Below are positions 1-27,861 of a stretch of DNA of 64,000 nucleotides, in pieces; within the stretch, counting starts at the first letter, position 1, and the number at the start of each line of letters is the position of its first letter. A program made the translations under genes and the position numbers. Below the pieces are notes generated by a model. It was not told the DNA's origin. It did no database searches and saw nothing but the letters and a program-made list of their open reading frames with translations. This stretch comes from Nitrospira sp. (lineage in GTDB: Bacteria; Nitrospirota; Nitrospiria; Nitrospirales; Nitrospiraceae): assembly GCA_030653545.1 (NCBI GenBank), contig JAURZE010000028.1, forward strand, positions 150,607 through 214,606. Direction: 5' to 3'.

Positions 1-312
1 GGTGTGCCGCCGGTTCCCGCTGATCGTGCGCAGGCTCTGCTGGAAGAATTGGGACGAGGTTGGACGCTGAACGGATCGGGGCATCTTGAACGGCTCTATA
101 CGTTCAAGGATTTTGCTCAGGCTTTGGCCTTTGTGAATAAAGTGAGCGCGATCGCCGAGGCCGAAGGCCATCATCCTGACCTCTACCTGGCTTGGGGGAA
201 GTGCAAGGTGGAGATCTGGACGCACAAGATCAACGGTTTGACGGAGAGCGATTTCTATCTCGCGGCAAAAGCCGACCGGGAGTTCGAGCCATTCCGAGCT
301 GCAGCATCCTAA
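1..312 (+). CDS. phhB: 4a-hydroxytetrahydrobiopterin dehydratase (pterin-4a-carbinolamine dehydratase), 5'-truncated by window
   Basis: Dehydrates 4a-hydroxytetrahydropterin and so recycles the pterin cofactor of aromatic amino acid hydroxylases; in many bacteria it has other, less clear roles. The family signature is visible: EGHHPDLYLAW with the paired catalytic histidines, followed by WTHKINGLTESDF near the C-terminus. The reading frame is open to base 1, and the first codons read G-V-P-P-V, which matches the internal 'GGVPP' stretch of family members with a Cys-rich N-terminus. The valine codon at 4 is therefore probably not the start, and some N-terminal residues lie outside the window. 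The gene sits 39 bp upstream of the radical SAM gene on the same strand. Confidence 0.88.
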   Translation, partial: GVPPVPADRAQALLEELGRGWTLNGSGHLERLYTFKDFAQALAFVNKVSAIAEAEGHHPDLYLAWGKCKVEIWTHKINGLTESDFYLAAKADREFEPFRAAAS

Positions 313-6046: not shown

Positions 6047-6718
6047 TCAGGGCCGTGGGTCCAGTTCAATCAATCCTTTCCGGATTGCAAGGATGGCCGC
6101 CTGGGTTCGATCATAGACCTGTAGCTTGTGGAAGATGTTGCGCACGTGATTTTTCACGGTTTTTTCACTAAGGTCCAGTGCGTTTGCGATCTCCTTGTTG
6201 GTCTTTCCGTCAGCCACTAACCGGAGAACCGTGATTTCGCGTTCGGTGAGGTCATGTTCCACCCACCCCGGCTTTTTGCCCTTCTTCTGCGCCATAAGGG
6301 AAAACTCAGCGAGAATTTTGCTGGCAACTGACGGGTGAATCAACGATTCGCCTCGGTAGATTGCGCGAATCGCCGCGACGATTTGGGAGGATTCGGAGTC
6401 TTTCAGGAGGTAGCCGGTGGCACCGGCACGAACCAGATCGAAAATGTACTGCTGTTCTTCGTACATCGTCAGCGCCACGATTCCGATGTGGGGAAACTCG
6501 CGTTTGATTTGTCTCGTGGCTTCGACGCCCCCCATGCGAGGCATGCTGACATCCATAAGAATGACATCGGGAACCAGCGCTTTGGCTTTTTCAACGGCTT
6601 CCATTCCATCCTGGGCTTCTCCCACGATATGGAGATCTTCTTTGGTTTTGAGAATGGCGGCCAGCCCTTCTCGAACGACCCGATGGTCATCGGCAATGAG
6701 GACTTTAATCTTGTCCAT
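6047..6718 (-). CDS. NarL/FixJ-family response regulator
   Basis: 223 aa: receiver domain (residues 1-120) with the phospho-acceptor Asp56 in VILMDVSMPRMGG, acidic pair in ADDHRVVREGL and the signature LLKDSESSQ, then a LuxR-type HTH (LTEREITVLRLVADGKTNKE, KTVKNHVRNIFHKL). It binds DNA as a phosphorylated dimer. It overlaps the upstream sensor kinase gene by 14 bp, so the two are translationally coupled and are almost certainly a cognate pair. Targets are unknown; the following gene lpxC is a candidate by position only. Confidence 0.93.
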   Translation of the reverse strand: MDKIKVLIADDHRVVREGLAAILKTKEDLHIVGEAQDGMEAVEKAKALVPDVILMDVSMPRMGGVEATRQIKREFPHIGIVALTMYEEQQYIFDLVRAGATGYLLKDSESSQIVAAIRAIYRGESLIHPSVASKILAEFSLMAQKKGKKPGWVEHDLTEREITVLRLVADGKTNKEIANALDLSEKTVKNHVRNIFHKLQVYDRTQAAILAIRKGLIELDPRP

Positions 6719-7814
6719 GTTCGCTAGTCTCCTTATTCATGAGGGGGACTTCGACTGTGATTGTCGTGCCTCTCCCCTGCTTGGAATCGATGTGTCCTTC
6801 GCCACCGACCAGTTTGGCCCTCTCAATAATACCTCGAATGCCAAAGTGATCCCATTTGTCCGGATCGCGCAACACGGCGTCCATATCGAATCCGATGCCA
6901 TTGTCTGAAATGGTCACCCGCAACATCTCCAGGTTGATCTCCAATTTGATCGAGACACGATCGGCCTTCGCATGCTTCTGGACGTTGCTCAAGGCTTCCT
7001 GAATAATCCGAAAGAGGAAGATCTTCGTTCGGGGAAACAAAATTTGTTCATCCCCGGTCACGGTGAACTGCGCTTTGATGCGGGCCTGAGTTTCGTAGGA
7101 CTTGAGGTAGTTGGTCAGCGCGGGAATCAGCTCCATTTTGTCATAGTGGAGTGGCCGTAAATTGAAGATGACTTGTCGGGCTTCCTGGATGGCGAGTTTC
7201 AGCTGGGCTTTGCTTTCCTTGATCGTGGCGAGGCTTGCTTTCGGGTTCTTGCGCACAAGTTGCTGGCACAAGTCGAGCTTGAAATTGACACCCGCAAGAC
7301 TTTGGACGAGCCCATCGTGGATTTCGCAGGCAATGCGTGTCCGTTCTTCAGTGACCGCCGCGCCGGTTTCTTTGACATATAGCCGGTAGAGAGACTGGTA
7401 CTTATTGAGCGTGTTCTCGATTTCTGCAGTGGCACGGATGCGCGCACCGATGAGCTCCCACATGAACTTGGCGCTGGCTCCGCCGATGATGGTGACGCCC
7501 ATCCGGTGAAAGTCCTGCAGGAATTGCCAGACTTCAGCATCGCCGGATACATCAATAACAAGGTCTACCCGCTCCATCGCTAAGAGTTTGCGATAGTCAC
7601 GCGTCACGGGAATCTGGAGTTGTTTTGCGAGCGTGACACCGGGCGCCTGCGTGTTGACCTCGGCAATTCCCACGATCTGCACGAGCGGATCGTTCGCGAA
7701 AATCTCCATGAGCGCGGTTCCCCCACGCCCGGCGCCGATAATAGCGACATTGGTGGCGCCAACCTTCGACGACTTACTCCGGACTTTGGTGGAACGGCGT
7801 TTCGTAGATGTCAT
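6705..7814 (-). CDS. NarX-type sensor histidine kinase with N-terminal Rossmann (dinucleotide-binding) domain
   Basis: 369 aa, no membrane segment. Residues about 22-120 are a Rossmann fold of the dehydrogenase type: NVAIIGAGRGGTALMEIF (GxGxxG at 27-32), VGIAEVN (acidic residue at the end of beta 2), VDLVIDVSG and TIIGGASAKFMWELI. A short helical linker leads to a HisKA_3 dimerisation domain with the phospho-acceptor His166 in RIACEIHDGLVQSLAGV. The HATPase domain follows (IIQEALSNVQKHAKA, SDNGIGFD, GIRGIIERA). The architecture suggests a cytoplasmic kinase sensing NAD(P)(H) or a related ligand; this is inference. It overlaps its response regulator gene by 14 bp. Confidence 0.88.
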   Translation of the reverse strand: MTSTKRRSTKVRSKSSKVGATNVAIIGAGRGGTALMEIFANDPLVQIVGIAEVNTQAPGVTLAKQLQIPVTRDYRKLLAMERVDLVIDVSGDAEVWQFLQDFHRMGVTIIGGASAKFMWELIGARIRATAEIENTLNKYQSLYRLYVKETGAAVTEERTRIACEIHDGLVQSLAGVNFKLDLCQQLVRKNPKASLATIKESKAQLKLAIQEARQVIFNLRPLHYDKMELIPALTNYLKSYETQARIKAQFTVTGDEQILFPRTKIFLFRIIQEALSNVQKHAKADRVSIKLEINLEMLRVTISDNGIGFDMDAVLRDPDKWDHFGIRGIIERAKLVGGEGHIDSKQGRGTTITVEVPLMNKETSEHGQD

Positions 7815-7925
7815 GGTTCTATGAACCAGTGTTGGTTGCCGGGGTACAAGTTGATTGCTGAGCTGAGAAATCGAAGGGAAGAGACGAAGGAGAGGAAGCA
7901 GAGCGAGGGGCTGAGGAGCCTGCCG

Positions 7926-8390
7926 TCACCGCTCTCGACGCTGCTGAGCCAGGGATTTGAGTTCGTCCATGAACTGATCAATGTCCTTGAACTCGCGATA
8001 GACAGACGCGAACCGGACATAGGCAACCTGGTCGAGTTGGTGCAACTCCTTCATGACTTCTTCGCCGACGATCCGACTTTCAATTTCACTTTCTCCCATC
8101 TCCTGGATCCGCTTCTCGATGCGATCCGTGACGTCCTCGATCGTGGCCGTGCTGATGGGTCTTTTCTCGCAGGCTTTCTTGAGGCCGGACAAGATTTTCG
8201 TGCGGTCGAACGACTCGCGCCGCCCGTCTTTCTTCACGACTACCGGGAGAATTTCTTCAACCCGCTCGTAGGTCGTATAGCGGCGTTTACAGCCGAGACA
8301 CTCGCGGCGCCGGCGAATGACCTCGCCTTCCTTGGCCATACGCGAGTCCACCACCTTGTCTTCGAGCTCGTCGCAGAACGGACATTTCAC
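7926..8390 (-). CDS. nrdR: transcriptional repressor NrdR
   Basis: 154 aa. N-terminal zinc ribbon with Cys3, Cys6, Cys31 and Cys34 ([32 protein letters not shown]), then an ATP-cone domain ([19 protein letters not shown]). NrdR reads the ATP/dATP balance and represses ribonucleotide reductase genes. It lies 30 bp downstream of glyA, a frequent arrangement. The sensor kinase starts 111 bp downstream. Confidence 0.96.
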
Positions 8391-8420
8391 TGGTGGCGAC
8401 CCTGCCCTTATGCCTGTGGG

Positions 8421-9683
8421 CTAGTAGGAGTGAAAAATAGGAAAGCGGTTGCACAACGCCTTCGCTTGAGCACGGACCTCTTCCAGGACGGTGGCATCGT
8501 GGCGGTGCTGTAGGACGCGGTCGATGAGGGCCACGATTTCTTTCATGTCTGCCTCTCGCATGCCGCGCGTGGAGACAATCGGCGTGCCAAGCCGGATGCC
8601 ACTGGCCACGGACGGGGGCTTTTCGTCATAAGGAACGGCATTTTTATTGACGATGATTCCTGCGGCGTCTAACGCGGCATCGGCCTCTTTCCCAGTAATG
8701 CCCTTGTTGGTGAGGTTTACCAGGAACAGATGGGTGTCGGTTCCGCCGGAGACAATCTTGTAGCCGCGATCGACGAGCCCCTGTGCAAGGGCACGGGCGT
8801 TCGCGACCACCTGCTGCTGATATTTTTTAAAGGAGGGCGACAAGGCCTCTTTGAAGGCCACGGCTTTGGCCGCGATCACATGCATCAAAGGTCCACCCTG
8901 AAGTCCCGGGAAGATAATCTTATCGACGGCCTTGGCGTGCTCGGCTTTGCACATTACGATACCGGCACGGGGACCACGGAGAGTCTTGTGGGTGGTCGTC
9001 GTGACGAAGTCGGCGAAGGGGACCGGGCTGGGATGGAGCCCCGCGGCGATCAGTCCAGCGATATGGGCGATATCCACCATAAGATAGGCACCGACTGATT
9101 TGGCGATCTGTTGGAAACGGGGAAAGTCGAGAACGCGCGCATACGCACTCGCACCGACGACGAGCATTCGTGGGCGGCATTCTTCCGCCAGTTTTTGCAC
9201 GGCATCGTAGTCGATCGTCTCAGTCTGTCGATCCACTCCGTACGCGAAGGCCTTGAAGATCATCCCCGAGAAACTTACTTTACTGCCGTGAGTCAGGTGG
9301 CCGCCATGGGCGAGGTCCATTCCGAGAATAGTGTCGCCAGGCTTGAGGACGGAGAGATAAGCCGCCATGTTTGCGGACGAACCGGAGTGTGGCTGAACGT
9401 TGACATGGTCTGCACCGAAGAGCTCTTTGGCACGCTGAATCGCCAGTGCTTCGACGGCGTCGACATGCTCGCATCCGCCGTAGTAGCGCTTGCCGGGATA
9501 ACCCTCAGCGTACTTATTGGTCATCAAGCTGCCTTGGGCAGCCAAGACAGCGGGGCTGGCAAAGTTCTCAGACGCGATCAACAAGAGTTTGTCACGTTGA
9601 CGGGTCTCTTCCGCTTCAATTGCGGCGTAGACATCCAGATCAGTTGATTTGAGAGCGTCTAGTGACCCGATCGCGTCGCGCAT
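8421..9683 (-). CDS. glyA: serine hydroxymethyltransferase
   Basis: PLP enzyme interconverting serine and glycine with transfer of a one-carbon unit to tetrahydrofolate. 420 aa, normal length. Motifs: [33 protein letters not shown], the PLP-lysine site [14 protein letters not shown] and SGIRLGTP near the C-terminus. The ATG at 9683 is used; a GTG codon directly before it is too close to the GGAGG at 9688-9692. It follows rplI by 23 bp and precedes nrdR, so the three form one operon. Confidence 0.96.
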
Positions 9684-9706
9684 CACCCCTCCACGGTGTA
9701 TCCCCG

Positions 9707-10177
9707 TTATGCTTCAGCAGCAGCTTCCTGTTCTTGCTTCTTAACCACACGGACGGTCACGGTGGCGGTTACTTCTCGTGGCATCTTGATCGGGACCGTG
9801 ACGGTACCCAGTTCCTTAATAGGCTGGGCCAGCTGGATCTTGCGCCGATCAATAGTAAACCCTTGTGCCGCCAAGGCTTCGGCTAAGTCTTTGGATGTCA
9901 CAGACCCGAACATCTTGTCGTCTTTTCCGACCTGTGCCTCAATGGTGAGGGTGACAGCAGAAACATTCTTGGCATGCACTTCAATTTCGAGCTTCTCTTT
10001 TTTCGCCTTCTCCGCTGCGACACGCTTCACGTGCTCGAATGCCTTGATACTGCGGCTGTTGGCCAAAACCGCTTTTTTGCGAGGCAACAGGAAGTTTCGG
10101 GCAAATCCGTCCCGAACATCGAGCAGATCGCCGAGATGGCCGACCCCATCCATCGTTTCTTGTAAAATGACTTTCAT
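9707..10177 (-). CDS. rplI: 50S ribosomal protein bL9
   Basis: 156 aa. The N-terminal RNA-binding domain shows the family signature ([21 protein letters not shown]-type start, [15 protein letters not shown]), followed by the long central helix and a C-terminal domain ([30 protein letters not shown]). The usual neighbours rpsF and rpsR are not adjacent here; rplI leads the operon with glyA and nrdR. AAGGAG lies upstream of the ATG. Confidence 0.96.
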
Positions 10178-10208
10178 AGCCCTAACTCCTTCTGTTGGAA
10201 AGGAAGTG

Positions 10209-10238
10209 AGGATACGGGGGATCAGGTTGAAAAGTCAA
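10209..10238 (-). promoter_or_regulatory. putative promoter of the rplI-glyA-nrdR operon
   Basis: Read on the minus strand: TTGACT at 10238-10233, 18-bp spacer, TATCCT at 10214-10209. This gives a leader of about 25 nt before the rplI ATG. Acceptable but not perfect boxes. Confidence 0.42.
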
Positions 10239-10335
10239 TTCTCTAATCCTTTTTCGGGTTGTGTTGGCGGCCTGGACAGGTGCCGAGGGGCCCCTATATC
10301 ATGGCCCACCGGTCGACGAGGGTGAGAGGAGCGAG

Positions 10336-11796
10336 ATGCAGTTAACAGCCAGAGCCTGTTTGGAAATGTGCGCCGCAAGCCTGGATCAAGAAGTCCTGCA
10401 AGCGAACGACGCCGGACTGGATATTCCTATTGTGGTGACCAGGGGACGGCTGGTTCATACAGTGGGAGGCCTTCACGTGTATGAATTCACCCTCCCGGCC
10501 GGATGTCTCCTGCCAATCGATCTTCCCCTGTCCATTGTTCCTGGAGACGAAATTGAAGCCACTGAGGGGGTGGTGCTGAGTTGTCAGGGTAATGTGGTGC
10601 TGGTGCAAGCGGTGGATGCCATTGGAGCCTCAGTTCCTTCCGCGACGCTCATTCCGGACCGCGCCGGGCACCTTGGTACCATCGCGACGCGGCTGCGAGA
10701 CATGATCAGCCAGGCGGATGCGTACAATCTCGGCCCGTCGGAGCGCCTGGTGCCGCTCTTGGTGTCGTCAGGTGATCCAAGCCAAGCCGCCCTCGGTTCT
10801 TCGGCGATCTTGACCACGGTATGGCTCGAAGATCAGGCCTTGCGTCGTCAGAAGATCGCCACGCTCGTGCTTGAGCTGATTCGCGCGAACAAACGGATTT
10901 TACTCATCGGTCCGGATCATCGCTCGTCTGATGAGATGGTCGGGACGATCGCGAAAGCCATGAAAGCCAGCGGATTGACCTACAAGACGTGGATCAGTCG
11001 CTACGAGATGAGCATCGTCTCTCAAACGAGCGGAATTTCCATCCATGAACTCGGGTTTGAGGCGCAGATGCATCAGTTTTATGCCAAGTCCAGGGCAGAT
11101 AAAGCCTCGCTTCGGCGAAAGTATGACCGGTTTCGCGAACTGACTCCCCTGCTGGCCTACAAAGGGCAGAAACAGAAGGATCTGGATGAAGTCCGTTTGC
11201 TGGAGTGGCGACTGTTGACCCAGTTGAGCGAGTTTCAGGCGAAGATCAAGGATGTCACGGCAATTCTGACGGAATACGAAAATCTCCCCCTCTGGCGCCG
11301 GATCGGCATGCAGACCGTTGGAAAGAACGTCGAATCGCTCCAGCAATATCGGGTGCTCTACGAGCAGCAGATCGGTGAACTGACCAAGGAGCTGGAGATC
11401 GCCAAGGTCCGTATCGACGAATTGGTTCCTGAAGCGGCCGTTCCGAAAGATTTGCGACCGGAATTTGATGACCTCAAAGAGGCCATCACGAAATTGGGCG
11501 GGACGAAGAAAATTCGCGAACTATTGGCGGCAGAAGAAAATACCAACCGACAAGCCTTTATCCAGAATCGTCGCCTGGTGATCTCCACGCCGGCGCGGAT
11601 TGCCAGTGATCCGCTGTTTGCGCGCGTGCGGTTCGATGTGCTCATCGTCGAGGACGCGCCGCAGATCGATGCGACCATGTTGCTGGCGGCGGCGGGGTTG
11701 GTGCGTGAGCGCATTGTGCTAAGTGGGGATCCTCGCGATCTTGCCGCAGGAGAAGGCTGGGCAATCCCCGGGATCGAATCCCCGGCGGTCGTTTAA
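10336..11796 (+). CDS. helicase-like protein resembling superfamily 1 DNA helicases but lacking Walker A
   Basis: 486 aa from the ATG at 10336, preceded by GAGAGGAG at a spacing of about 5 nt; a GTG 75 bp upstream is possible but unsupported. Residues about 60-120 form a small beta-rich region (IPIVVTRGRLVHTVGG, VVLSCQGNVVLVQAV). The middle (about 245-400) is a long coiled coil. The last 60 residues (RFDVLIVEDAPQIDATMLLA, ERIVLSGDPRDLA) match motifs II and III of UPF1/DNA2-like SF1 helicases. Where motif I should be there is ILLIGPDHRSSDEMV, without GKT, and the chain ends right after motif III, so the second RecA domain is missing. ATP hydrolysis is unlikely. Function unknown. Confidence 0.6.
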   Translation: MQLTARACLEMCAASLDQEVLQANDAGLDIPIVVTRGRLVHTVGGLHVYEFTLPAGCLLPIDLPLSIVPGDEIEATEGVVLSCQGNVVLVQAVDAIGASVPSATLIPDRAGHLGTIATRLRDMISQADAYNLGPSERLVPLLVSSGDPSQAALGSSAILTTVWLEDQALRRQKIATLVLELIRANKRILLIGPDHRSSDEMVGTIAKAMKASGLTYKTWISRYEMSIVSQTSGISIHELGFEAQMHQFYAKSRADKASLRRKYDRFRELTPLLAYKGQKQKDLDEVRLLEWRLLTQLSEFQAKIKDVTAILTEYENLPLWRRIGMQTVGKNVESLQQYRVLYEQQIGELTKELEIAKVRIDELVPEAAVPKDLRPEFDDLKEAITKLGGTKKIRELLAAEENTNRQAFIQNRRLVISTPARIASDPLFARVRFDVLIVEDAPQIDATMLLAAAGLVRERIVLSGDPRDLAAGEGWAIPGIESPAVV

Positions 11797-11814
11797 GGCT
11801 GCGCACATAGTTGC

Positions 11815-11844
11815 TTGACGCCGGTAGCGTGAATTCAGGATAAT
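11815..11844 (+). promoter_or_regulatory. promoter of tRNA-Leu
   Basis: TTGACG at 11815-11820, 18-bp spacer, GATAAT at 11839-11844. Transcription would start about 13 nt before the mature tRNA end. Confidence 0.6.
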
Positions 11845-11863
11845 CCTCCCCTCGACCCTTCTT

Positions 11864-11949
11864 GCCGAAGTGGTGGAATGGCAGACACACTGGTTTCAGG
11901 TACCAGCGACCGCAAGGTCATGCGGGTTCAACTCCCGCCTTCGGCACCA
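11864..11949 (+). tRNA. tRNA-Leu (anticodon CAG)
   Basis: Acceptor stem GCCGAAG pairs with CTTCGGC at 11939-11945, discriminator A, then an encoded CCA at 11947-11949. The anticodon stem CTGGT/ACCAG flanks the 7-nt loop TTCAGGT, with the anticodon CAG at 11897-11899. A class II variable arm (GACC-GCAA-GGTC) and the T arm GCGGGTTCAACTCCCGC are visible. Length 86 nt, right for tRNA-Leu. Confidence 0.97.
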
Positions 11950-11980: not shown

Positions 11981-12382
11981 CTAATGTTTCAAGTTGCAGG
12001 CGCCTACCGGGCAGGAATTCGAGCGACCGGTGAGTCGGAGGCGGTTTCGTGCAAACCATGCGTAGGCTCGCAAGACCATCGGCTCGAGAAGAGAAAGACG
12101 GCTTAGCCTCGCAAGCATTCCAAGACCGACAGCTTCCCACATGGCCCGGAACACCTCGACGCCGCTGATCACTCTCCCGTCAGCCCAACGGGCATGAATG
12201 ATTCTGCTCAGCTCTGCAGAGGAAACGTCGATGGATGCCGCGTCATAGTCAACCGCCGAGAAGTCGTTGAATTTCAGTTGTCGTTGCCGGTCTAATCGCG
12301 TCATGAACGCGATTTCTCGCGCGCAGATGGGACAGGCTCCGTCGAAAAAGACTGTGAGCGGGTAGGGTGCCATCTGTCCCAT
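11981..12382 (-). CDS. DCC-family thiol-disulfide oxidoreductase-like protein (DUF393)
   Basis: 133 aa. The family motif DGACPIC occurs near the N-terminus ([20 protein letters not shown]), and downstream family residues are present ([26 protein letters not shown]). Members have a thioredoxin-like fold with a CxxC pair; the physiological partner is not established. The gene starts 9 bp after the CarH-like regulator on the same strand, so the two share a transcript and light control. Confidence 0.85.
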
Positions 12383-12391
12383 TCCTTGTCG

Positions 12392-13309
12392 CTAGGTTCG
12401 GGATAAAGACTGCCGCGCCAATCGATCCAGCGTCATATCCAGTTCGGCGAAGCTCTCCACGATCTCAATATGAGCTTTCTCAAAGAGATCCCGCATGTCG
12501 AGCGCGCCATTTCCACCGACGGCCACGCGCGATGTCGGAGCCACTTCGCGCGTGAGGTTATCGACTAACTCCGCAGCGTTCGCATCGGACAGAGCGAGGG
12601 GAAATGAAATGAGCGTCAGATCGGGTTTCACCGTGCGGCAGAGATTGGCAAGGGACGCAATGGGCACATTGGCGCCCAGGTAGTAGACACGGCAGCCGCG
12701 AACACGACATCGATAAGCGACCGCCAGTGCGGCGATGTCGTGTTCTTCCCCTGGCGGGCACGCGACGACTACCTTGGCGCCGAATTCTGTCACCGGTAGC
12801 TGATTCATCGCTGAGAAAATCTTTTGTTGGATTTGCTTCGTCACGTAATGTTCGATGGCGATGTTCACGTGACCATCGTGCCAGAGCCGGCCGACCTGTT
12901 CCTGGAGCGGAAGCAGAATTCCGTGCAGTGCTTCCTCAAAGGGAACAACAGCGACAGCACCGTTCAAGCGCTTTTCGAAGGTGACGCGATCGAAGGGATC
13001 TAGTGTTGAGAGTAATTCACGAAGCAATCTGCTGAACGTATTATCGACGAACGACACTTGAGGCGCGCTGGCTCGCGCTCTTCTCAATAATTCGTCGCGA
13101 CCCAACTTCGACAGCTCTCCGATTGAACCTCCCGCATCGAGTTGCTCTTTGAGATATCTCAGTAACGAGACATCTTCATCAGAATAATTTCGGTATCGAT
13201 TGGCTCCCCTGGTCGGTTTTAGGAGGTCAAACCGACGCTCCCATACCCGTATGACGTCTTTTGAGAGCCCGGTGAGTTTTGCAACTCTATGAATTCTATG
13301 AGTATTCAT
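12392..13309 (-). CDS. CarH/LitR-like MerR-family transcriptional regulator with B12-binding domain
   Basis: 305 aa from the ATG at 13309. Residues 1-70 are a MerR winged helix (HRVAKLTGLSKDVIRVWERR, NRYRNYSDEDVSLLRYL). Residues about 90-170 are the four-helix bundle with the light-sensing signature W143-x9-E153-H154, whose Trp caps the adenosyl group in CarH. Residues about 178-300 are a Rossmann cobalamin domain with E188-x-H190 (PPGEEHDIAAL); the usual following Gly is Ala. Known CarH proteins bind DNA in the dark as AdoCbl tetramers and fall apart in light. It is divergent from the photolyase cluster, which it probably represses. The predicted transcript is almost leaderless. Sequence further upstream in the same frame has no family similarity. 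Confidence 0.9.
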   Translation of the reverse strand: MNTHRIHRVAKLTGLSKDVIRVWERRFDLLKPTRGANRYRNYSDEDVSLLRYLKEQLDAGGSIGELSKLGRDELLRRARASAPQVSFVDNTFSRLLRELLSTLDPFDRVTFEKRLNGAVAVVPFEEALHGILLPLQEQVGRLWHDGHVNIAIEHYVTKQIQQKIFSAMNQLPVTEFGAKVVVACPPGEEHDIAALAVAYRCRVRGCRVYYLGANVPIASLANLCRTVKPDLTLISFPLALSDANAAELVDNLTREVAPTSRVAVGGNGALDMRDLFEKAHIEIVESFAELDMTLDRLARQSLSRT

Positions 13310-13321
13310 TTTACTAAACGC

Positions 13322-13350
13322 ATTATATTTTAACGTCCAACGTTTGTCAA
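13322..13350 (-). promoter_or_regulatory. consensus promoter of the CarH-like gene
   Basis: On the minus strand TTGACA (13350-13345), 17 bp, TATAAT (13327-13322): a perfect sigma-70 consensus. The start of transcription would fall near 13315, only about 6 nt before the ATG, and there is no ribosome-binding sequence. A TTTGAC/TTGGAC pair in 11-bp register covers the -35 box and spacer, suggesting autoregulation. Confidence 0.85.
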
Positions 13351-13369
13351 ATAATTTACATTTTAACAC

Positions 13370-13398
13370 TTGACACATTGGACAAGATGGTTTATACA
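13370..13398 (+). promoter_or_regulatory. promoter of the light-response operon
   Basis: TTGACA at 13370-13375, exactly 17 bp, TATACA at 13393-13398. It points into the zinc-ribbon gene at 13447 and the long plus-strand cluster. The two divergent -35 boxes are 19 bp apart, so one bound repressor can cover both. Confidence 0.82.
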
Positions 13399-13431
13399 TT
13401 AGACATAGTTGATACAAACATTGAACAGCAA
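13399..13431 (+). promoter_or_regulatory. tandem 11-bp operator repeats, likely CarH-type binding sites
   Basis: Three head-to-tail units, TTAGACATAGT, TGATACAAACA and TTGAACAGCAA, share T-N3-ACA with ACA at 13403, 13414 and 13425, exactly 11 bp apart. They sit directly downstream of the -10 box, over the expected transcription start. A related TTGGACA occurs at 13378-13384 inside the spacer. From memory, Thermus CarH binds 11-bp direct repeats overlapping its promoter, so the arrangement fits. Confidence 0.65.
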
Positions 13432-13446
13432 CCTACGGAGGTGACC

Positions 13447-13749
13447 ATGGCAACAGCGAAGGCAGCGGGAGCGAGAGTGGGCCAGCTGGAAATTCGAGAA
13501 GTGTTTTCTGCGGCCAAGCAAGGATCAACGTGCAGCAGATGTGGCGGGCTCATGGTGAGTGACTTCTGTATGGATCTGCTGAACTGCACCGGTGAACTGG
13601 AGTTTGCCGCGACGCGTTGCGTGCAATGCGGCGAAGTTGTCGATCCGGTCATTGAGCGTAATCGTCACCTTCGGCAGGACGCCATGACGGTTCGATGTGT
13701 CGCGAGGCCGGTTCAGACAATTTCGAGGCTAAAGGATTACAATAATTAG
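13447..13749 (+). CDS. small zinc-ribbon protein (first of two paralogues)
   Basis: 100 aa from the ATG at 13447, which has GGAGG 5 nt upstream. A four-cysteine zinc ribbon is clear: CSRCGGLMVSDFCMDL, then about 20 residues, then RCVQCGEVVDPVIERNR. The N-terminal 45 residues are Ala-rich and basic. It is the first gene after the light-responsive promoter. The core matches the protein at 17542-17868 over its whole ribbon. Function unknown; a role as a small DNA/RNA-binding or adaptor protein is only a guess. Confidence 0.8.
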   Translation: MATAKAAGARVGQLEIREVFSAAKQGSTCSRCGGLMVSDFCMDLLNCTGELEFAATRCVQCGEVVDPVIERNRHLRQDAMTVRCVARPVQTISRLKDYNN

Positions 13750-13757
13750 TTAAACCA

Positions 13758-13775
13758 ACCAGGGGTGTTCCTGGT
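13758..13775 (+). other. intercistronic hairpin
   Basis: ACCAGG and CCTGGT with a 6-nt loop, between the zinc-ribbon gene and the first SUMF1 gene and just before its AAGGAGG ribosome site. No T-tract follows, so it is more likely an mRNA stability or attenuation element than a full terminator. Confidence 0.35.
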
Positions 13776-13799
13776 GTTTCCAAACCAAGGAGGTTTCTC

Positions 13800-14768
13800 A
13801 TGCGGAGTCAAACGGTTCTTCAGATCGGATTGGGGGTGGCGTTAGTGGCTGGGACCATATCCATGGCGGCGGCGGAATCGCCTACCGGCGACAAGGATAT
13901 GGTGTCGATCCCGAGAGGCGAGTTCACCATGGGGAGTCATGAACATTCCGATGAAGCGGCGCATCAAGTCGTCCTCGATGCTTACCTCATCGACAAGTAC
14001 GAAGCATCGAATGCGCGGTACAAGGAATTTATGAAGGGGAGCGGCCATCCAGCACCGGCTTACTGGGACGATCCCCGGCTCAGCAAGGCTAATCAGCCGG
14101 TCGTCGGCGTAAGCTGGACCGACGCGGAGGCGTTCTGCAAGTGGGATGGGAAGCGTCTGCCGACCGAAGCCGAATGGGAGCGGGCTGCCAAGGGGCCGAC
14201 AGGCGATAACCATTATCCCTGGGGCCACAAGCTCGATCCGAAGAAAGCCAACTATGGACAGAATGTGGGTCGCACGATGCCGGTCGATTCCTACCCTGAA
14301 GGCGTGAGCGGATTCGGGGTCTACAACATGGCCGGCAATGTATTCGAGTGGGTGAATGACTGGTATGACCCGAAGTCCTATAAGGACAGCCAGGCACTGA
14401 ATCCCAAAGGGCCGGACAAAGGCTACAACTTCGCTAACCAGGGTGCGGTCAGAGTGCTGCGCGGCGGTTCCTGGCTTGCTCCCGAAACGTCTCTGCATAC
14501 GAGCCACCGATTCTGGAATCAGCCGGAGAACAATTCCTACGGCGTGGGGCTCGGGTTCCGTTGCGCCAAGTCGGCTCAGACGGTTTCCGATGATGCCGTG
14601 CAGGCCGGTCGCGATGCTTTCATTCAAGCGTTAGTCGCGATGGGCGCGGAGAAGAATGCCGATGCGATGGCCTCCATCGAGAAGGCACTGGCTTCAGAAC
14701 CGGGCAACAAGGAGTACCTGGCTACCCGTGATCTGATCAAGAAGAGCATGGGCATGAAGAAGAAATAA
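13800..14768 (+). CDS. exported SUMF1/FGE-fold protein 1, non-catalytic
   Basis: 322 aa with AAGGAGG before the ATG. A signal peptide (about residues 1-25, ending near SMAAAES) indicates export. The SUMF1 (formylglycine-generating-enzyme-like) fold spans about 32-260: MVSIPRGEFTMGSHEHSDEA, KRLPTEAEWERAAKG, YNMAGNVFEWVNDWYD, VRVLRGGSWLAPE and GLGFRCAK. True FGEs carry two copper-binding cysteines just after GGSW; here that stretch reads APETSLHTSH, so sulfatase activation is not expected. Residues about 265-322 form a TPR-like helical tail ending in a Lys-rich stretch. Paralogues lie at 14837 and 16306. Confidence 0.88.
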   Translation: MRSQTVLQIGLGVALVAGTISMAAAESPTGDKDMVSIPRGEFTMGSHEHSDEAAHQVVLDAYLIDKYEASNARYKEFMKGSGHPAPAYWDDPRLSKANQPVVGVSWTDAEAFCKWDGKRLPTEAEWERAAKGPTGDNHYPWGHKLDPKKANYGQNVGRTMPVDSYPEGVSGFGVYNMAGNVFEWVNDWYDPKSYKDSQALNPKGPDKGYNFANQGAVRVLRGGSWLAPETSLHTSHRFWNQPENNSYGVGLGFRCAKSAQTVSDDAVQAGRDAFIQALVAMGAEKNADAMASIEKALASEPGNKEYLATRDLIKKSMGMKKK

Positions 14769-14782
14769 CCACATCGACTGAA

Positions 14783-14807
14783 AGGGGGGCGGCGTTGCCG
14801 CCCCCCT
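14783..14807 (+). other. strong intercistronic hairpin
   Basis: AGGGGGGCGGC (14783-14793) pairs perfectly with GCCGCCCCCCT (14797-14807) around a 3-nt loop, 15 bp after the first SUMF1 gene. There is no T-tract. It may reduce downstream expression or protect the upstream mRNA. Confidence 0.55.
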
Positions 14808-14836
14808 GGCACCGAGCGTCACGCGGGAGGTTAATG

Positions 14837-15889
14837 ATGAATCTTTCCAACACCATGACGGTAGCACTGTTTCTCACGGGGGCTCTGATACCCATCGGCG
14901 GAAGTGCGGCGGGAGAATCGTTGATTCCTCAGGATATGGTGTATGTCGCACACGGGCCTTCTGTGATGGGCATTGATAAAGAAGTGCCTGCGTCCAAGAA
15001 GTCCACCGCCTATGAGCGTCGAATGAACACGCCCTGGTCCGCCGATGCTTTGAACGATGAGGGGCCGGCCCACATGGTGTTTCTGGATTCGTATCTGATC
15101 GACAAGTATGAGGTGTCCAATAAGCAGTTTGGCGACTTCATGCGGGCGAAAGGCCATCCGGCCCCGGCCTACTGGGACGATCCCCGCCTTAACAAACCCG
15201 AGCAGCCGGTCGCCGGAGTGAATTGGGAGGATGCCAAGGACTTCTGTGAATATCGTGGCAAACGTCTTCCGACCGAGGCGGAATGGGAAAAAGCCGCTCG
15301 CGGACCCAAAGCCAATCTGTATCCCTGGGGGAATGAATTCGATCCGGCAAAAGCGAACTACGGCAAGAATCACGATGCCACGATGCCGGTGGATTCCTAT
15401 CCGGAGAGCGTGAGCTACTACGGTGTGTACAATATGGCCGGGAATGTTTTTGAGTGGGTCGCCGACTGGTATGACCCCCGCTATTACGGCCGGCTCGAAA
15501 CAATGGTGAATCCGACCGGTCCGGCTAAACCTATCTGGATGGGCGGGACAGGCACCTATGTGGATCGGTTGACGGTCGGAGAGAAGCGAGTCATTCGCGG
15601 TGGATCGTGGATCGCACCGGAGGGCACGGTCAAGGCCACCCACCGGTTCTGGAATCACCCGCTCAATAACAGCTATGGCGTGGGCCTGGGGTTCCGCTGT
15701 GCCAAGACCGCCCCGCCGGAAATCGAGCAGCAGATCAGGGACGCGTACATCACCGCACTTGTCGAGATGGGGCGCGAGCGGTTTTCGGACGCTCAGCAGG
15801 CCGTGGCGCGCGGCTTGGCTATTGACCCGAAGAATATCGAATTGTTGGAGCTCAGCCCGTTGATCGAGCAGTCGATGAAGAAGTCTTAA
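14837..15889 (+). CDS. exported SUMF1/FGE-fold protein 2, non-catalytic
   Basis: 350 aa from the second of two adjacent ATGs (14837), which is 6 nt from GGAGG; the ATG at 14834 is an alternative. Signal peptide up to about GGSAAGES. Same fold and order of motifs as protein 1: YLIDKYEVSNKQFGDFMRAK, GHPAPAYWDDPRLNKPEQPV, KRLPTEAEWEKAARG, YNMAGNVFEWVADWYDPRYY, VIRGGSWIAPEG and GLGFRCAK, and a TPR-like C-terminal tail. Like protein 1 it lacks the FGE cysteines. The DDPRL segment is almost identical to protein 1, so these two are the closer pair of the three. Confidence 0.88.
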   Translation: MNLSNTMTVALFLTGALIPIGGSAAGESLIPQDMVYVAHGPSVMGIDKEVPASKKSTAYERRMNTPWSADALNDEGPAHMVFLDSYLIDKYEVSNKQFGDFMRAKGHPAPAYWDDPRLNKPEQPVAGVNWEDAKDFCEYRGKRLPTEAEWEKAARGPKANLYPWGNEFDPAKANYGKNHDATMPVDSYPESVSYYGVYNMAGNVFEWVADWYDPRYYGRLETMVNPTGPAKPIWMGGTGTYVDRLTVGEKRVIRGGSWIAPEGTVKATHRFWNHPLNNSYGVGLGFRCAKTAPPEIEQQIRDAYITALVEMGRERFSDAQQAVARGLAIDPKNIELLELSPLIEQSMKKS

Positions 15890-15940
15890 ATGAATCGGCA
15901 CCGTCCGTCGTGACGGTGGGATCGAGACGGAGGCGTAGAC

Positions 15941-16309
15941 ATGACACGGTACACAAGGATAGTCCTCGGAATTTCATTCAGTGCGTTACTGGGAGCGGCA
16001 ACGGTCCAGGCCGGCCCTCTTGATCCGGCCCGCCATTCGCACCCGGACAGCGCCAAGGCGGTTCATGAAGCGGAACACGACGTGGATCACGCGTGGGAAA
16101 TTTACCATCGCGCAGCCCTCGGGGGCACGGTGGCGTCGCCCGCACTGCAGGCTGAAATTGAGGAGCATTTGCACGAGGCCAGGACCCTCGTCACTCAGGC
16201 GCAGGAAGCGGCTGAGCGGGGGGATAAGCGTCAGGTGGATCGCCTGGTCGGCCAAGTCAAAATCCATACGACCCACGCCATTGAGGGGAGCAAGGAGCAG
16301 AAGAAATGA
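15941..16309 (+). CDS. SmbP-like exported histidine-rich small protein
   Basis: 122 aa with a signal peptide (about 1-24, ending VQAGP). The mature part is an amphipathic helical pair rich in His, Glu and Ala (HSHPDSAKAVHEAEHDVDHA, IEEHLHEARTLVTQAQEAAE, IHTTHAIEG). This resembles the periplasmic small metal-binding protein SmbP first known from Nitrosomonas. Copper or other divalent metal binding is likely by family but not shown here. A hairpin (CACCGTC at 15899-15905 with its complement at 15912-15918) lies just upstream. Its stop overlaps the start of the third SUMF1 gene (ATGA), so the two are coupled. Confidence 0.72.
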   Translation: MTRYTRIVLGISFSALLGAATVQAGPLDPARHSHPDSAKAVHEAEHDVDHAWEIYHRAALGGTVASPALQAEIEEHLHEARTLVTQAQEAAERGDKRQVDRLVGQVKIHTTHAIEGSKEQKK

Positions 16310-17151
16310 CACCAGTTCTAGGCAGAAGAGGAGCAAGCCGGAGAGTCCTGGTGGGAATCATTGCCGTCGCTTGGGCGGTTATGCAATCGCCCGCTATGGC
16401 AGCGGCCCCGGCATCCAAGGAGCTTGACTCGGTTCCCATGGTGACGATTCCAGCCGGAGAATTCTTGATGGGCAATCCGGAAGGAAAAGGTCGAGCGGAT
16501 GAGTGGCCGCAGCGATCTGTCTATCTCGATGCGTTCGCCATCGATCAAGTGGAAGTGACGAATGAACGGTACCTGGCTTTCGTCGCGACCACGGGCCATC
16601 GCAATCCTCCGAATCCGTACGGCACCGGTACGCTCCAGTCTGCGAAGGGGATCGAGCAACTTCCCGTCGTGCAGACGACCTGGTACGACGCCAAGGCCTA
16701 CTGCAGTTGGGCCAAGAAACGCCTGCCGACCGAAGCGGAATGGGAAAAGGCCGCGCGTGGCACCGACGGCCGTCTCTTTCCCTGGGGTAATGAGCCGGCA
16801 ACCATCAAACGTGCCAACTTTGATCGTGAATGGGAAGAGGAGAAGACCTTGCACCCGGTGGGGTCAATGCCCGACGGCGACTCGCCCTACGGAGTGAAGG
16901 ATATGGCCGGCAATGCCCGGGAATGGGTGTCCGACTGGTATGACGCGGACTATTACAAACATGCGCCGGATCGGAATCCGCAAGGTCCTGACAAGAAGGG
17001 CGTGGTGCGCTCGATTCGCGGCGGCTCGTGGCACAGCCCGCTGGCCGACATCACGGCCTCAGCCAGAGGTCGCGGCGGATTTGCGCTGCAAACCCACGGC
17101 ACAGGCTTCCGCTGTGCGCGCGGGCTCGAGGGTGAAGGCCAACAGAAATAG
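16306..17151 (+). CDS. exported SUMF1/FGE-fold protein 3, non-catalytic
   Basis: 281 aa. A long signal peptide (about 1-34, ending SPAMAAAP) precedes the SUMF1 fold: MVTIPAGEFLMGNPEGKG, IDQVEVTNERYLAFV, KRLPTEAEWEKAARG, DMAGNAREWVSDWYDADYY, IRGGSWHSPLADI and GTGFRCARG. It has no TPR-like tail, unlike its two paralogues. The FGE copper-site cysteines are absent. ATGA overlap with the SmbP-like gene points to production in fixed ratio with it. Confidence 0.87.
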   Translation: MTPVLGRRGASRRVLVGIIAVAWAVMQSPAMAAAPASKELDSVPMVTIPAGEFLMGNPEGKGRADEWPQRSVYLDAFAIDQVEVTNERYLAFVATTGHRNPPNPYGTGTLQSAKGIEQLPVVQTTWYDAKAYCSWAKKRLPTEAEWEKAARGTDGRLFPWGNEPATIKRANFDREWEEEKTLHPVGSMPDGDSPYGVKDMAGNAREWVSDWYDADYYKHAPDRNPQGPDKKGVVRSIRGGSWHSPLADITASARGRGGFALQTHGTGFRCARGLEGEGQQK

Positions 17152-17373
17152 AAGGGTGAGGTGTTGCGTGAGCGAGCGAATCGATCAGCGGAGCGATGGA
17201 GAAATTCTGAGAGTGGTGTCTCTATCTTCTCAGAGCGGCGCCGCGACTCCGCACGGCGTCTCTCGCTGAGGTCGACAGGTCCCTCAATCCGGAGGGGCCT
17301 GTCCCCTCGGTCGGTAGCGGGGGCGGATTCACGGCACTGGCGCAGTCCCGTCGGGAGCCACGAGGAGCACAAC
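17152..17373 (+). other. gap with a 12-bp-stem hairpin at 17274-17303
   Basis: No confident gene in this 222-bp gap. GACAGGTCCCTC (17274-17285) pairs with GAGGGGCCTGTC (17292-17303), 11 Watson-Crick pairs and one G-T, around a 6-nt loop. No T-tract follows. It may partly terminate the SUMF1 block from the downstream genes. A GTG frame at 17168-17269 (33 aa) is too weak to call. Confidence 0.45.
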
Positions 17374-17499
17374 ATGATGACGATAATGATGTGGGTCATG
17401 ACAGTCGGTGTGTTGACGTGTCTGGGACAAGGCGCACAGCGGCGACCGATGGTTGTGCTTCGGCGGCAGACCGAAACGAGACGGCCCTGCGGGCACTGA
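17374..17499 (+). CDS. possible small membrane peptide (41 aa)
   Basis: ATG at 17374 with AGGAG 6 nt upstream. The first half (MMTIMMWVMTVGVLTCLGQG) is one hydrophobic segment, the second half is Arg-rich, so it would be a single-pass peptide with the basic end in the cytoplasm. It ends 42 bp before the second zinc-ribbon gene. No family is recognised; the good ribosome site is the main support. Confidence 0.4.
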   Translation: MMTIMMWVMTVGVLTCLGQGAQRRPMVVLRRQTETRRPCGH

Positions 17500-17541
17500 G
17501 CAACAGATGGGTGGCACCTTGTATTGGAATCGAGGGGTCCC

Positions 17542-17868
17542 ATGGAATCCGATGGGAGACCAAACCAGCATCCAGTCTCTCTACACTCCGTCGACGACTA
17601 CTGTGCGCGTTGCGGGGGGTTGATGGTTGTGGAGCACTACATCGACTTGCAGGACGACACGGGGCAGATCGGCTTGACCGCGTGGCGCTGCATGAGTTGC
17701 GGGGAAGTCATCGACCCCGTCATTCTTCAGAATCGTGAGAGACCGGCGCCGAATCTTTTGTATGGCACGAAGCAGCGAAAGTACGCGCAGCCAGTCGATC
17801 AGGGGGAATCTGATGGCTCCGGCAACCGGGAAGGCGACGACAGCGGGGGAGCATCCCGGCACAATTGA
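17542..17868 (+). CDS. small zinc-ribbon protein (second paralogue)
   Basis: 108 aa from the ATG at 17542 (GAGGGG upstream). The core YCARCGGLMVVEHYIDLQDD, then WRCMSCGEVIDPVILQNR, aligns without gaps to the protein at 13447-13749, including CGGLMV and the CGEV(V/I)DPVI-x-x-NR end. The C-terminal 35 residues are polar and disordered. Together the two paralogues bracket the SUMF1/SmbP block. Confidence 0.8.
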   Translation: MESDGRPNQHPVSLHSVDDYCARCGGLMVVEHYIDLQDDTGQIGLTAWRCMSCGEVIDPVILQNRERPAPNLLYGTKQRKYAQPVDQGESDGSGNREGDDSGGASRHN

Positions 17869-17915
17869 TCCGCTCAGTTGTCAGGCGTGTTTCTGTGAAT
17901 AAGGAGAAGGCGACC

Positions 17916-18833
17916 ATGAACGTGGTGGTGACAGGCGGCACGGGATTCATCGGTCGGCCCTTGTGTCTGGCACTTTGCCGGGACGGTCATGCCGTCACGC
18001 TGCTGACACGCCGGCCGCCGGAAGCCCATCAGGTATTCGGTAGCGCAGTTACCGTTGTGGGGTGGAATAGTCGTGAGGGGGGAGCCTGGGAGAAGACCCT
18101 TGAGGCGGCCGATGCCGTGATCAACCTGGCCGGCGCCCCGATTGCCGATGCCCGCTGGACCACTGCGCGGAAGCGCCTGCTCACCGACAGCCGGGTGTCG
18201 ACGACGCGCCTGTTGGTCGAAGCCCTGTCCCGCCGGCCCTTCAAACCCCGCACCCTGATCAGCGCTTCAGGCATCGGCTACTACGGTGCGAGCGACAATC
18301 GCATCTTGGAAGAGGGGGCCGCGCGCGGTGAGGGATTTCTGGCCGACCTCTGCCTTGAGTGGGAAGCGGCGGCGTTGGCGGCGGCATCGTTCGGGACTCG
18401 CGTGGTGATCGTGCGGACCGGAATGGTGCTCGAACAAGACGGCGGTGCGTTGCCCAAGATGGTGCTGCCCTTCCGGCTGTTCGCGGGCGGTCCGATCCTG
18501 CCGGGTACGCAGTGGGTGTCGTGGATTCATCGGCGCGATCACATAGGATTGATTCAGTGGGTGCTTGCGACGTCGAGCATTTCCGGTCCCGTCAATGCCG
18601 TCGCTCCCGGCGCTGTGACGATGGAGACGTTCTGCGATGCGCTCGGACAGGTGCTTCATCGTCCCTCCTGGCTGCCGGTGCCGGGGTTCGCGCTCAAAGC
18701 GGCTCTGGGGGAATTGGGGACATTGATGACGACCGGACAGCGGGTCAGCCCCGCCAAAGCGCTCGCGGGCGGCTATACGTTTCAGTATCCAACATTGGAT
18801 CCGGCGTTGCGCGCGATTCTCACGAAGGCATGA
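17916..18833 (+). CDS. TIGR01777-family SDR epimerase (YfcH-like)
   Basis: 305 aa from the ATG at 17916, with AAGGAG upstream. N-terminal NAD(P)-binding GGTGFIG (MNVVVTGGTGFIGRPL), then NLAGAPIADARWT, LISASGIGYYGASD, the family stretch VVIVRTGMVLEQDGGALPKM, WISWIH-like VSWIHRRD and a C-terminal DUF1731 region (PSWLPVPGFALKAALGELG, ALAGGYTFQYPTL). The substrate is unknown for the whole family. It recurs in light- and singlet-oxygen-responsive clusters of other bacteria. Confidence 0.9.
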   Translation: MNVVVTGGTGFIGRPLCLALCRDGHAVTLLTRRPPEAHQVFGSAVTVVGWNSREGGAWEKTLEAADAVINLAGAPIADARWTTARKRLLTDSRVSTTRLLVEALSRRPFKPRTLISASGIGYYGASDNRILEEGAARGEGFLADLCLEWEAAALAAASFGTRVVIVRTGMVLEQDGGALPKMVLPFRLFAGGPILPGTQWVSWIHRRDHIGLIQWVLATSSISGPVNAVAPGAVTMETFCDALGQVLHRPSWLPVPGFALKAALGELGTLMTTGQRVSPAKALAGGYTFQYPTLDPALRAILTKA

Positions 18834-18846
18834 AGGAGGACGGATC

Positions 18847-19311
18847 ATGGATACCCTCATCCAGTTTGTCCATGCGTTAGCGGTGGCTATTCTGGTCGGC
18901 AAAGTGGTGCTCTTGTCCTTCGTGGTGGCGCCTATCCTGGCCAAGAATCTCGACCGGGAACCGTTCGGGAAAGTCGTGCGGCAGTTGTTTCCGGCCTATT
19001 ACGGGTTGGGGATGGGGACCGCGGTTGCCGGGTTCATCGCGGTGAACGGACTGGTGGCGATGCATTCGAGCAGTGCAAGGTTGCTTATCGCCGGTGGGCT
19101 CTGGATCCTGGTGCTGGTGACCGAAGCCTATTGCCGCTCGACGTTGACGCCTCAGAGTAATGCCATACGGGATCGGCTGAAGGAACAGGAGTCGCAAGGA
19201 GCGATCGATCCGGTCCTTCAGGCCTCCTGGCAGCGGGTGCATCAACGGTCCGTTTATTTGAATTCCAGCGTGCTCCTTGCGGGCTGTGCCTTGATAGCGC
19301 TGATTCGTTAG
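18847..19311 (+). CDS. DUF4149/TMEM205-like membrane protein
   Basis: 154 aa with about four membrane segments: residues about 8-30 (LAVAILVGKVVLLSFVVAPI), 52-70 (YYGLGMGTAVAGFIAVNGL), 80-98 (LLIAGGLWILVLVTEAYC) and 135-153 at the C-terminus. The N-terminal pattern and the TPQSNAIRDRL loop fit the DUF4149 family. Function not known. GGAGG precedes the ATG; 13 bp after the epimerase gene. Confidence 0.75.
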   Translation: MDTLIQFVHALAVAILVGKVVLLSFVVAPILAKNLDREPFGKVVRQLFPAYYGLGMGTAVAGFIAVNGLVAMHSSSARLLIAGGLWILVLVTEAYCRSTLTPQSNAIRDRLKEQESQGAIDPVLQASWQRVHQRSVYLNSSVLLAGCALIALIR

Positions 19312-19339
19312 TGATGATCAAATTAGAAGGAGGGACAAC

Positions 19340-19792
19340 ATGAACATGAGAACAGCATATCTGGCCGGATGTGTGATGTTGGGGCTGCTGTGCAGCATGG
19401 AGGTGCGCGCGGCGGAAAGCTCGGCGACGCCCTCCCCGTACGCCCATGGAGACGAAGCAGCGCTGCCGAACGGTGTCGTCGGGGTCTCGTTGCAGGTCGG
19501 GGCTGAGCGGATCGGCGATCCGGCGGTGCTCTATGTCGGTATGGTGCATCCGGAAGGCCCGGCCCATCAGGCGGGTTTGGCGCACGGAGACGAGATTGTG
19601 GCGGTGGATGGAACGGCTACGACCGGCAAAAGCTATGAGCAGGTGGTGAAGATGATACGCGGCACAGTCGGTACCGTGGTCAAGCTGGGCGTGAAGGGCG
19701 AGGGAGGCATGCGGGAACTGTCGATTACCCGCGTCGCCGGTGACAAACTTCCGAAGGGCCCGTCCGGATCGCACGGCGGTCCATCGAAATAG
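19340..19792 (+). CDS. exported single-PDZ-domain protein
   Basis: 150 aa. Signal peptide about 1-25 (CVMLGLLCSMEVRAAES). Residues about 48-135 form a PDZ domain (VVGVSLQVGAERIGDP, VHPEGPAHQAGLAHGDEIVA, TGKSYEQVVKMIRGTVGTVV) with the usual ligand-groove glycine stretch altered to GVVGVSL. No protease domain is attached, so it is likely a periplasmic adaptor. Strong AGGAGG ribosome site. Confidence 0.8.
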   Translation: MNMRTAYLAGCVMLGLLCSMEVRAAESSATPSPYAHGDEAALPNGVVGVSLQVGAERIGDPAVLYVGMVHPEGPAHQAGLAHGDEIVAVDGTATTGKSYEQVVKMIRGTVGTVVKLGVKGEGGMRELSITRVAGDKLPKGPSGSHGGPSK

Positions 19793-19801
19793 GAGTCGAT
19801 C

Positions 19802-20335
19802 ATGGTCTGTCGCAGGACGTGCATGGCCCTGTTTGCGTTGCTGGTGTTCCTGGGTCACGGGCCGGTGTCGGCCGAATCCGGAAGAGGGAGTGCTGTTACG
19901 ATGCAGCCTACTCTCACAAAGGCGAATCTCTTTTTGGCAGCCGGCGATTATCGTCGTGCGCTCGAAGCCTGCCAGCGAGCTATCGATGACGATCCGTCGG
20001 CAGCCCATTACATCCACCTGACCTATGTGTATCAGGCGATCGATGCCTATTTGGAACATCTGTCGCAGGAAGAGCGATGGATGGCGGTCGAGCATCTCTA
20101 CCTGAACCTGGCCTATCGCGACACCGAGGACCTAGTCGATCCTCCGGGAGGACTGGCCCGCATGGCCAAGGAAATGATCCAGGCCAGCGTGCGGCAACAG
20201 TCCGACGTGAGTGCGTCGATGGCCAATCGTCTGGATAAGGCCGAGTCGGACCGTCTCTGGGTGGAACAGACGCAGTGGCGGGCCGCGAATCCGAAAACCT
20301 GGTGGCAGGGAATGCCCGCCGCCTGGATGCGATAG
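19802..20335 (+). CDS. exported protein with a TPR-like repeat
   Basis: 177 aa with signal peptide (about 1-24, LLVFLGHGPVSAES). Residues about 37-75 (ANLFLAAGDYRRALEACQRA and onward) look like one TPR unit; the rest is helical and acidic, ending KTWWQGMPAAWMR. No named family. It lies 9 bp after the PDZ gene, so the two may act together in the periplasm. Confidence 0.68.
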   Translation: MVCRRTCMALFALLVFLGHGPVSAESGRGSAVTMQPTLTKANLFLAAGDYRRALEACQRAIDDDPSAAHYIHLTYVYQAIDAYLEHLSQEERWMAVEHLYLNLAYRDTEDLVDPPGGLARMAKEMIQASVRQQSDVSASMANRLDKAESDRLWVEQTQWRAANPKTWWQGMPAAWMR

Positions 20336-20344
20336 GAGGGAAGG

Positions 20345-23546: not shown

Positions 23547-23575
23547 GCAATAGAATCAACCGGAGGAGTGATGAC

Positions 23576-24085: not shown

Positions 24086-24136
24086 CGATGGCTAAGGCGG
24101 CATCCGGGTGCGCGCCTCTGCTTGGAGACTAAGCCT

Positions 24137-27219: not shown

Positions 27220-27226
27220 GGTACAC

Positions 27227-27757: not shown

Positions 27758-27861
27758 CGTAGGCCAGGAAGTAATGGAATCATACCGGGCGTCGATGTTG
27801 TGGCGGCTTATTTTCCGATCTGGCCTGGTCCGGACCTGATCAACGAGGCGCTGAAGATCGT
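27758..27861 (+). other. inter-gene segment with an open frame coupled to the next gene
   Basis: After the lipocalin TAG the same frame stays open for 35 codons and ends at a TGA (27863-27865) that overlaps the ATG of the FAD oxidoreductase gene (ATGA). The end of this frame reads VAAYFPIWPGPDLINEALKI. A GTG at 27800 could start a 21-aa peptide but lacks a clear ribosome site. It may be a leader peptide, a gene remnant or chance. Confidence 0.25.

Follow-up and report, generated by a model that had tools for sequence, protein, structure and literature searches.

A conserved divergent operator-promoter region probably places a photolyase operon of Nitrospira under a CarH-type, B12-based light switch

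Between a carH-like gene and a long operon in Nitrospira lies a 137-bp region (positions 13310 to 13446 of the 64-kb stretch of contig DNA that we analyzed, here called the window), and its layout raises the question of whether one repressor could control transcription in both directions. The GC content of this region is 33%, versus 57% for the window, and the region contains two divergent promoters placed back to back, with -35 boxes 19 bp apart. The carH promoter (13322 to 13350, minus strand) is composed of the -35 box TTGACA (13350 to 13345), a 17-bp spacer, and the -10 box TATAAT (13327 to 13322). It had been pointed out in a sequence-only reading of this DNA and was found to match the consensus at 12 of 12 positions, being the sole perfect TTGACA-16..18-TATAAT combination in the window. 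For the operon promoter (13370 to 13398, plus strand), the same reading had proposed TTGACA-17-TATACA. The boxes and their spacing are indeed present, with a perfect -35 box at 13370 to 13375 and a -10-like TATACA at 13393 to 13398, but the latter matches the consensus at only 4 of 6 positions and lacks the final T, which is why a strict promoter scan missed this promoter. The sequence also contains a GGAGG ribosome-binding site for the first operon gene (13437 to 13441, plus strand). Among relatives, the operon -35 box is invariant, with TATACA or a similar sequence 16 to 18 bp away in most of them, and the -10 box of the carH promoter scores 5 to 6 out of 6 in 30 of 52 nonredundant relatives. 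Most relatives also preserve the 17-bp length of both spacers and the distance of 19 bp between the -35 boxes, the latter correctly described before.

We then looked at the repeats overlapping these promoters. Three T-N3-ACA units begin at 13399, 13410, and 13421, with a pitch of exactly 11 bp, as originally claimed. The scan for other such triplets that had been suggested was run across the 64-kb window and found none besides this one, and dinucleotide shuffling of the 137-bp sequence produced a triple in only 0.08% of cases (P = 0.0008). A longer unit, ACATTnnACA, occurs at 13375, 13396, and 13418, and three copies of it were seen in 0 of 5,000 shuffles. The published CarH repeat is nnnnTnnACAn (PMC9304148). 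Read in that register, the downstream units become TAGACA, GATACA, and TGAACA, that is, a full repeat, a pseudorepeat, and a full repeat, and this array resembles those bound by known CarH proteins (PMC9304148).

The putative operator can be divided into three modules. Module 1 (13334 to 13350, minus strand), TTGACA-AACGT-TGGACG, consists of two units starting at 13350 and 13339, 11 bp apart, and covers the carH -35 box and spacer. This pair had also been noticed earlier; it is present and kept in relatives as TTGACAAACATTGGACA, but one such pair alone is unremarkable (shuffle P = 0.11). Module 2 (13370 to 13384, plus strand), TTGACACATTGGACA, covers the operon -35 box, and its units are 9 bp apart in Nitrospira, versus 11 bp (e.g., TTGACAAACATTGAACA) in the deeper-branching Nitrospirota loci L058, L064, L068, and L027. 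Module 3 (13400 to 13427, plus strand), TAGACA-GATACA-TGAACA, has three units at an 11-bp pitch and covers the likely start site and the leader. The region thus harbors tandem 11-bp nnnnTnnACAn repeats overlapping promoter elements, as in CarH operators, with module 2 deviating by its 9-bp spacing.

To place these modules in a wider context, we compared the DNA upstream of about 95 CarH relatives and reduced it to a nonredundant set of 52 regions (<85% identical). In these 52 regions, which are related to each other so that the counts are not independent, we found 416 TnnACR units, whereas shuffles gave 222, and units were most often 11 bp apart (72 versus 3.5 in shuffles). The alignment showed the same three modules at the carH -35 box, at the operon -35 box, and across the leader and likely start site of the operon, deeper-branching Nitrospirota included, while the stretches between and outside the modules diverge, indicating that conservation is local. 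The switch DNA is nearly unchanged across dozens of related species, and conservation in about 80 related loci removes doubt that the arrangement of the repeats is beyond chance. The nearest named locus is that of Nitrospira sp. S2bin.15 (L031), 92.8% identical over 12.9 kb. Near-identical loci filed under a Pyrinomonadaceae MAG (a 3.2-kb contig) and under Nitrosospira (L032, L045, and L056) are probably misbinned or misnamed Nitrospira.

Within the genome, ACATTNGACA is present in 15 copies, and only within 13310 to 13446 do several of them cluster and coincide with a promoter. The 13 further copies genome-wide are all single and lie mostly in GC-rich coding-like DNA, so that no second regulon target was identified among them. 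A search of the genome for ACAAACRTTRRAC gave one exact additional copy. One additional exact ACAAACGTTGAAC is located at G000:C22:506582-506594 (L131), in the genome whose contig 28 holds the window (G000), and is a possible second CarH site.

The carH-like gene itself (12392 to 13309, minus strand) encodes a 305-amino-acid protein with a MerR helix-turn-helix (HTH), a four-helix bundle, and a B12-binding domain, in which Pfam detects MerR_1, B12-binding, and B12-binding_2. Its best match in the PDB is Thermus CarH/LitR (E = 5e-27). Residues W143, H144, E153, H154, and H190 correspond to W131, H132, E141, H142, and H177 of the Thermus thermophilus (Tt) protein, all five thus being present, and the light signature of class I LitR/CarH, GxxW, EH, GxxH, and GxxxP (PMC11796333), is complete (GRLW, EH, GEEH, and GANVP). 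When the AlphaFold2 model (pLDDT 88) was submitted to Foldseek, full-length CarH structures (5c8d-5c8f) ranked first, and CarH B12 domains gave TMt values of about 0.8 to 0.87. The best NCBIfam family is CarH NF052513, with 122 bits and an equivalog cutoff of 400 that is not reached; since this cutoff is meant for close equivalogs, the score limits the name of the protein and not its kind. Homology, signature residues, and predicted fold support the assignment of the protein as a class I CarH/LitR relative, in agreement with the initial naming of the gene as CarH-like. Tt R176 and D201 are replaced by E and N. These positions lie at a subunit interface in the Thermus structure, and the oligomer formed by the Nitrospira protein may thus differ.

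On the other side of the region, the first operon gene (13447 to 13749, plus strand, as are all genes that follow) encodes a small CxxC...CxxC (zinc-ribbon-like) protein with a paralogue at 17524 to 17868. Neither of the two gave a Pfam or NCBIfam match, and the pair is conserved beside carH in most loci. Three FGE-sulfatase-domain proteins (PF03781; 13800 to 14768, 14837 to 15889, and 16306 to 17151) and a small protein encoded between them (15941 to 16309) come next, in an order conserved beside carH, and the leader block of CxxC and FGE-domain genes is conserved across loci. A photolyase with a conserved trio of FGE-sulfatase-domain proteins in its presumed light-regulon operon is an unusual association. 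The stretch from 17524 to 20767 encodes the second CxxC protein, an SDR (DUF1731), DUF4149, PDZ, and TPR proteins, and unknown proteins. It is followed by a class I-type DNA photolyase (20767 to 22212; PF00875/PF03441), which matches TIGR03556 (photolyase, 8-HDF type) with an E value of 8e-127, under the cutoff, and by RudS (22203 to 23162; PF04463 and PF08349), a TudS/DUF523-DUF1722 fusion of the tRNA 4-thiouridine desulfidase family, whose link to light operons has been described (PMC11417400). The remaining genes (23175 to 31213) encode an unknown protein, CbiX-like, CFA-like methyltransferase, DUF2878, DUF1295, lipocalin-like, FAD oxidoreductase, and DUF1365-like proteins, and a second CFA-like protein, the last five names being taken partly from reading the sequence. 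From strand and close spacing, we infer that this roughly 18-kb same-strand gene run forms one transcript. Photolyase, RudS, and CFA-like genes are tied to LitR light regulons elsewhere (PMC9758184, PMC11417400), and the same set is found here beside a LitR-type gene. A second CarH-like gene, about 31% identical, is present in sister-family genomes (G072 [L144:2308-3117], G067, G070, G073, and G075) and in G072 sits between the CbiX-like and RudS genes of the same cluster.

Concerning the cofactor, the genome encodes BtuR, a PduO-type adenosyltransferase, and CobS and contains two cobalamin riboswitches; judged by gene content, it can make AdoCbl. The host, taken in the sequence-only reading for a likely chemolithoautotroph, is a relative of the nitrite-oxidizing Nitrospira and has cobalamin adenosyltransferases. 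N. marina, for its part, must import vitamin B12 (PMC8115632).

We propose that carH and the operon share these 137 bp as a divergent operator-promoter under the control of a CarH (class I LitR) repressor. CarH oligomers loaded with AdoCbl would, in the dark, occupy the tandem T-N2-ACA repeats at the carH -35 box, the operon -35 box, and the operon start site and would silence the operon as well as carH itself (autoregulation). In light, or when AdoCbl is lacking, CarH would come off the DNA, leaving RNA polymerase, with its housekeeping sigma factor, free to transcribe the photolyase/RudS/stress operon and carH. The sequence-only reading had likewise inferred one repressor for both directions and a B12- and light-dependent switch, and our computational results support it. 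The repeats, their pitch and conservation, the co-occurrence with carH, the signature residues, the fold, and the AdoCbl capacity were computed, and we infer the start sites and the repression. By analogy with the CarH family, from which binding and the dependence on light and B12 are deduced, we consider it likely that a dark, AdoCbl-dependent CarH repressor shuts both promoters and releases them in light.

A protein repressing from these repeats without B12 light sensing, be it B12 independent, a sensor of B12 or of redox state, or relieved by a partner protein, is unlikely, although Myxococcus CarA and class II LitR do repress without AdoCbl (PMC9304148, PMC9758184). The sensor domains of two CarH types found at this site, A and B, are strongly different, and the position of H132 is occupied by R in one Nitrospira relative and by Y in another. 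However, the window protein carries the full AdoCbl/light signature, equivalents of W131, E141, H142, and H177 are found in every relative whose residues at these positions were inspected, the target genes are light related, and AdoCbl synthesis is encoded in the genome.

We regard it as very unlikely that the repeats combine two sigma-70 promoters with binding sites for some other, unlinked regulator, with carH not being their reader. MerR-family genes can be bystanders, and CarH binding to this DNA is a prediction, but in four genomes the operator has been lost along with carH. More broadly, and in favor of the proposed CarH switch, carH and the photolyase co-occur among 46 genomes of the genus, a photolyase gene being found in 23 of the 25 with carH and in 6 of the 21 that lack it (P = 1e-5 by Fisher's test, with no correction for kinship). 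The four genomes with the loss (G022, G025, G037, and G043) belong to these six; they have kept photolyase and RudS and lack the operon front, and no operator motif was found in them. An unlinked regulator is also disfavored since the repeats fit the CarH consensus, and HTH residues 1 to 24 are 95 to 98% identical wherever the operator is kept. Remnants of carH were also encountered. G045 (L142:1-480) has a broken carH with an intact operator, and L072 (3200 to 3440), L075, and L087 harbor a carH-A remnant with the middle deleted, intact operon-side operator modules, and an intact carH-B about 2.5 kb away. The -35 box of the dead carH-A gene is gone in L072; as the carH-side site is still present in G045, L075, and L087, selection on single modules is not cleanly separable.

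The MerR-family HTH could also belong to a classical MerR-type activator twisting a long spacer, a highly improbable reading that we rejected since both spacers are 17 bp and not 19 to 20 bp and since direct repeats lie over the -35 box and the start site, with no dyad in the spacer. That low-GC intergenic DNA with promoter boxes happened to repeat by chance is refuted by the shuffle tests and by the conservation of the 11-bp pitch in the 52 nonredundant relatives, leaving this explanation a negligible probability.

The proposed CarH switch has features of several known systems. Thermus thermophilus CarH/LitR (PDB 5c8d-f) has the same MerR HTH, helix bundle, and B12 domain with W131, H132, E141, H142, and H177, and its operator likewise places 11-bp TnnACA repeats in tandem on a -35 box. 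Identity to the Thermus protein is nevertheless only 28%, the R176 and D201 positions are changed, and the Nitrospira locus, unlike the Thermus operator, has three separate modules, one of them beyond the start site, with no carotenoid genes recognized in the operon. The divergent crt-carH loci of Sorangiineae similarly combine divergent promoters with a mixture of full 11-bp repeats and pseudorepeats that overlap promoter elements (PMC9304148). The targets of myxobacterial CarH/CarA are, in contrast, carotenoid genes, and the operators of these proteins vary between suborders, whereas the Nitrospira layout is nearly fixed across the genus. As for the target genes, Pseudomonas class II LitR (PplR/PmlR2) represses photolyase genes, including one operon with RudS (PMC9758184, PMC11417400), from two operators, one over the -35 box and the other downstream of the start site but ahead of the start codon, similar to the arrangement here. 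In class II LitR, the B12 domain is reduced to its helix-bundle half, PmlR2 works with a LOV partner, and the operator is TGTACA-N12-TGTACA; with its complete B12-binding domain and different repeats, the Nitrospira system was not assigned to class II.

We finally compared the two CarH types, which are about 52% identical and share one site beside the same operon; loci where this was noticed include L057, L079, L016, L074, L077, and L145. Type A, to which the window protein belongs, is accompanied by a gene for a DCC1-like thiol-disulfide oxidoreductase (11981 to 12382, minus strand; PF04134), located after carH in nearly all type-A loci, and type B mostly lacks it. L057 matches the window at 94% identity over 6063 to 11949 and at 88% over 13238 to 19307, with the carH-DCC1 stretch replaced by a CarH that is 52% identical; the same swap is seen, on the operon side, in L079 and L016. 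In the CarH tree, type A forms one clade (support 100/99), while 7 changes of the A/B label are required on the tree of the neighboring FGE1, with well-supported branches forcing at least 6 of them. Misassembly of MAGs may affect single cases but cannot explain a pattern recurring in many. HTH residues 1 to 24 are 98% identical between the types, compared to 26 to 67% for the remainder. Gene conversion of this segment was not supported, as the first 72 nt of type B are about equally close to type A and to other type B genes, so that amino acid constraint suffices to explain the identical HTH. Both types stand in tandem in L074 and in G034, every copy having an operator of its own, and this suggests a route of duplication, exchange between operator repeats, and loss. 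In G034 (L145), three carH copies lie within 8 kb, and a separate divergent operator accompanies each of them. Our tentative and rather speculative view is that the sensor is a plug-in part, CarH types being repeatedly swapped on one fixed operator and possibly tuning nitrifiers to different light, redox, or B12 regimes.

Photoinhibition and photolyases are already known for Nitrospira. Light inhibits members of the genus, comammox species among them, and the recovery of N. inopinata has been suggested to involve gene regulation, with no regulator named (PMC9797979). Our literature search, with most subscription papers outside its reach, found no report of CarH in Nitrospira. The locus adds to the CarH/LitR family a system with a noncarotenoid target in nitrifiers, together with an unusual record of sensor exchange, and the sensor alleles, swapped repeatedly over an unchanging operator, form a natural series in which the photoreceptor evolves and its DNA target stays. 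For Nitrospira, it provides a concrete candidate regulator and operator for the light response. These nitrifiers probably switch on their sun protection through a B12-based light switch, which would tie photoprotection to vitamin B12: in species with the switch, the operon should also come on in the dark when B12 is short.
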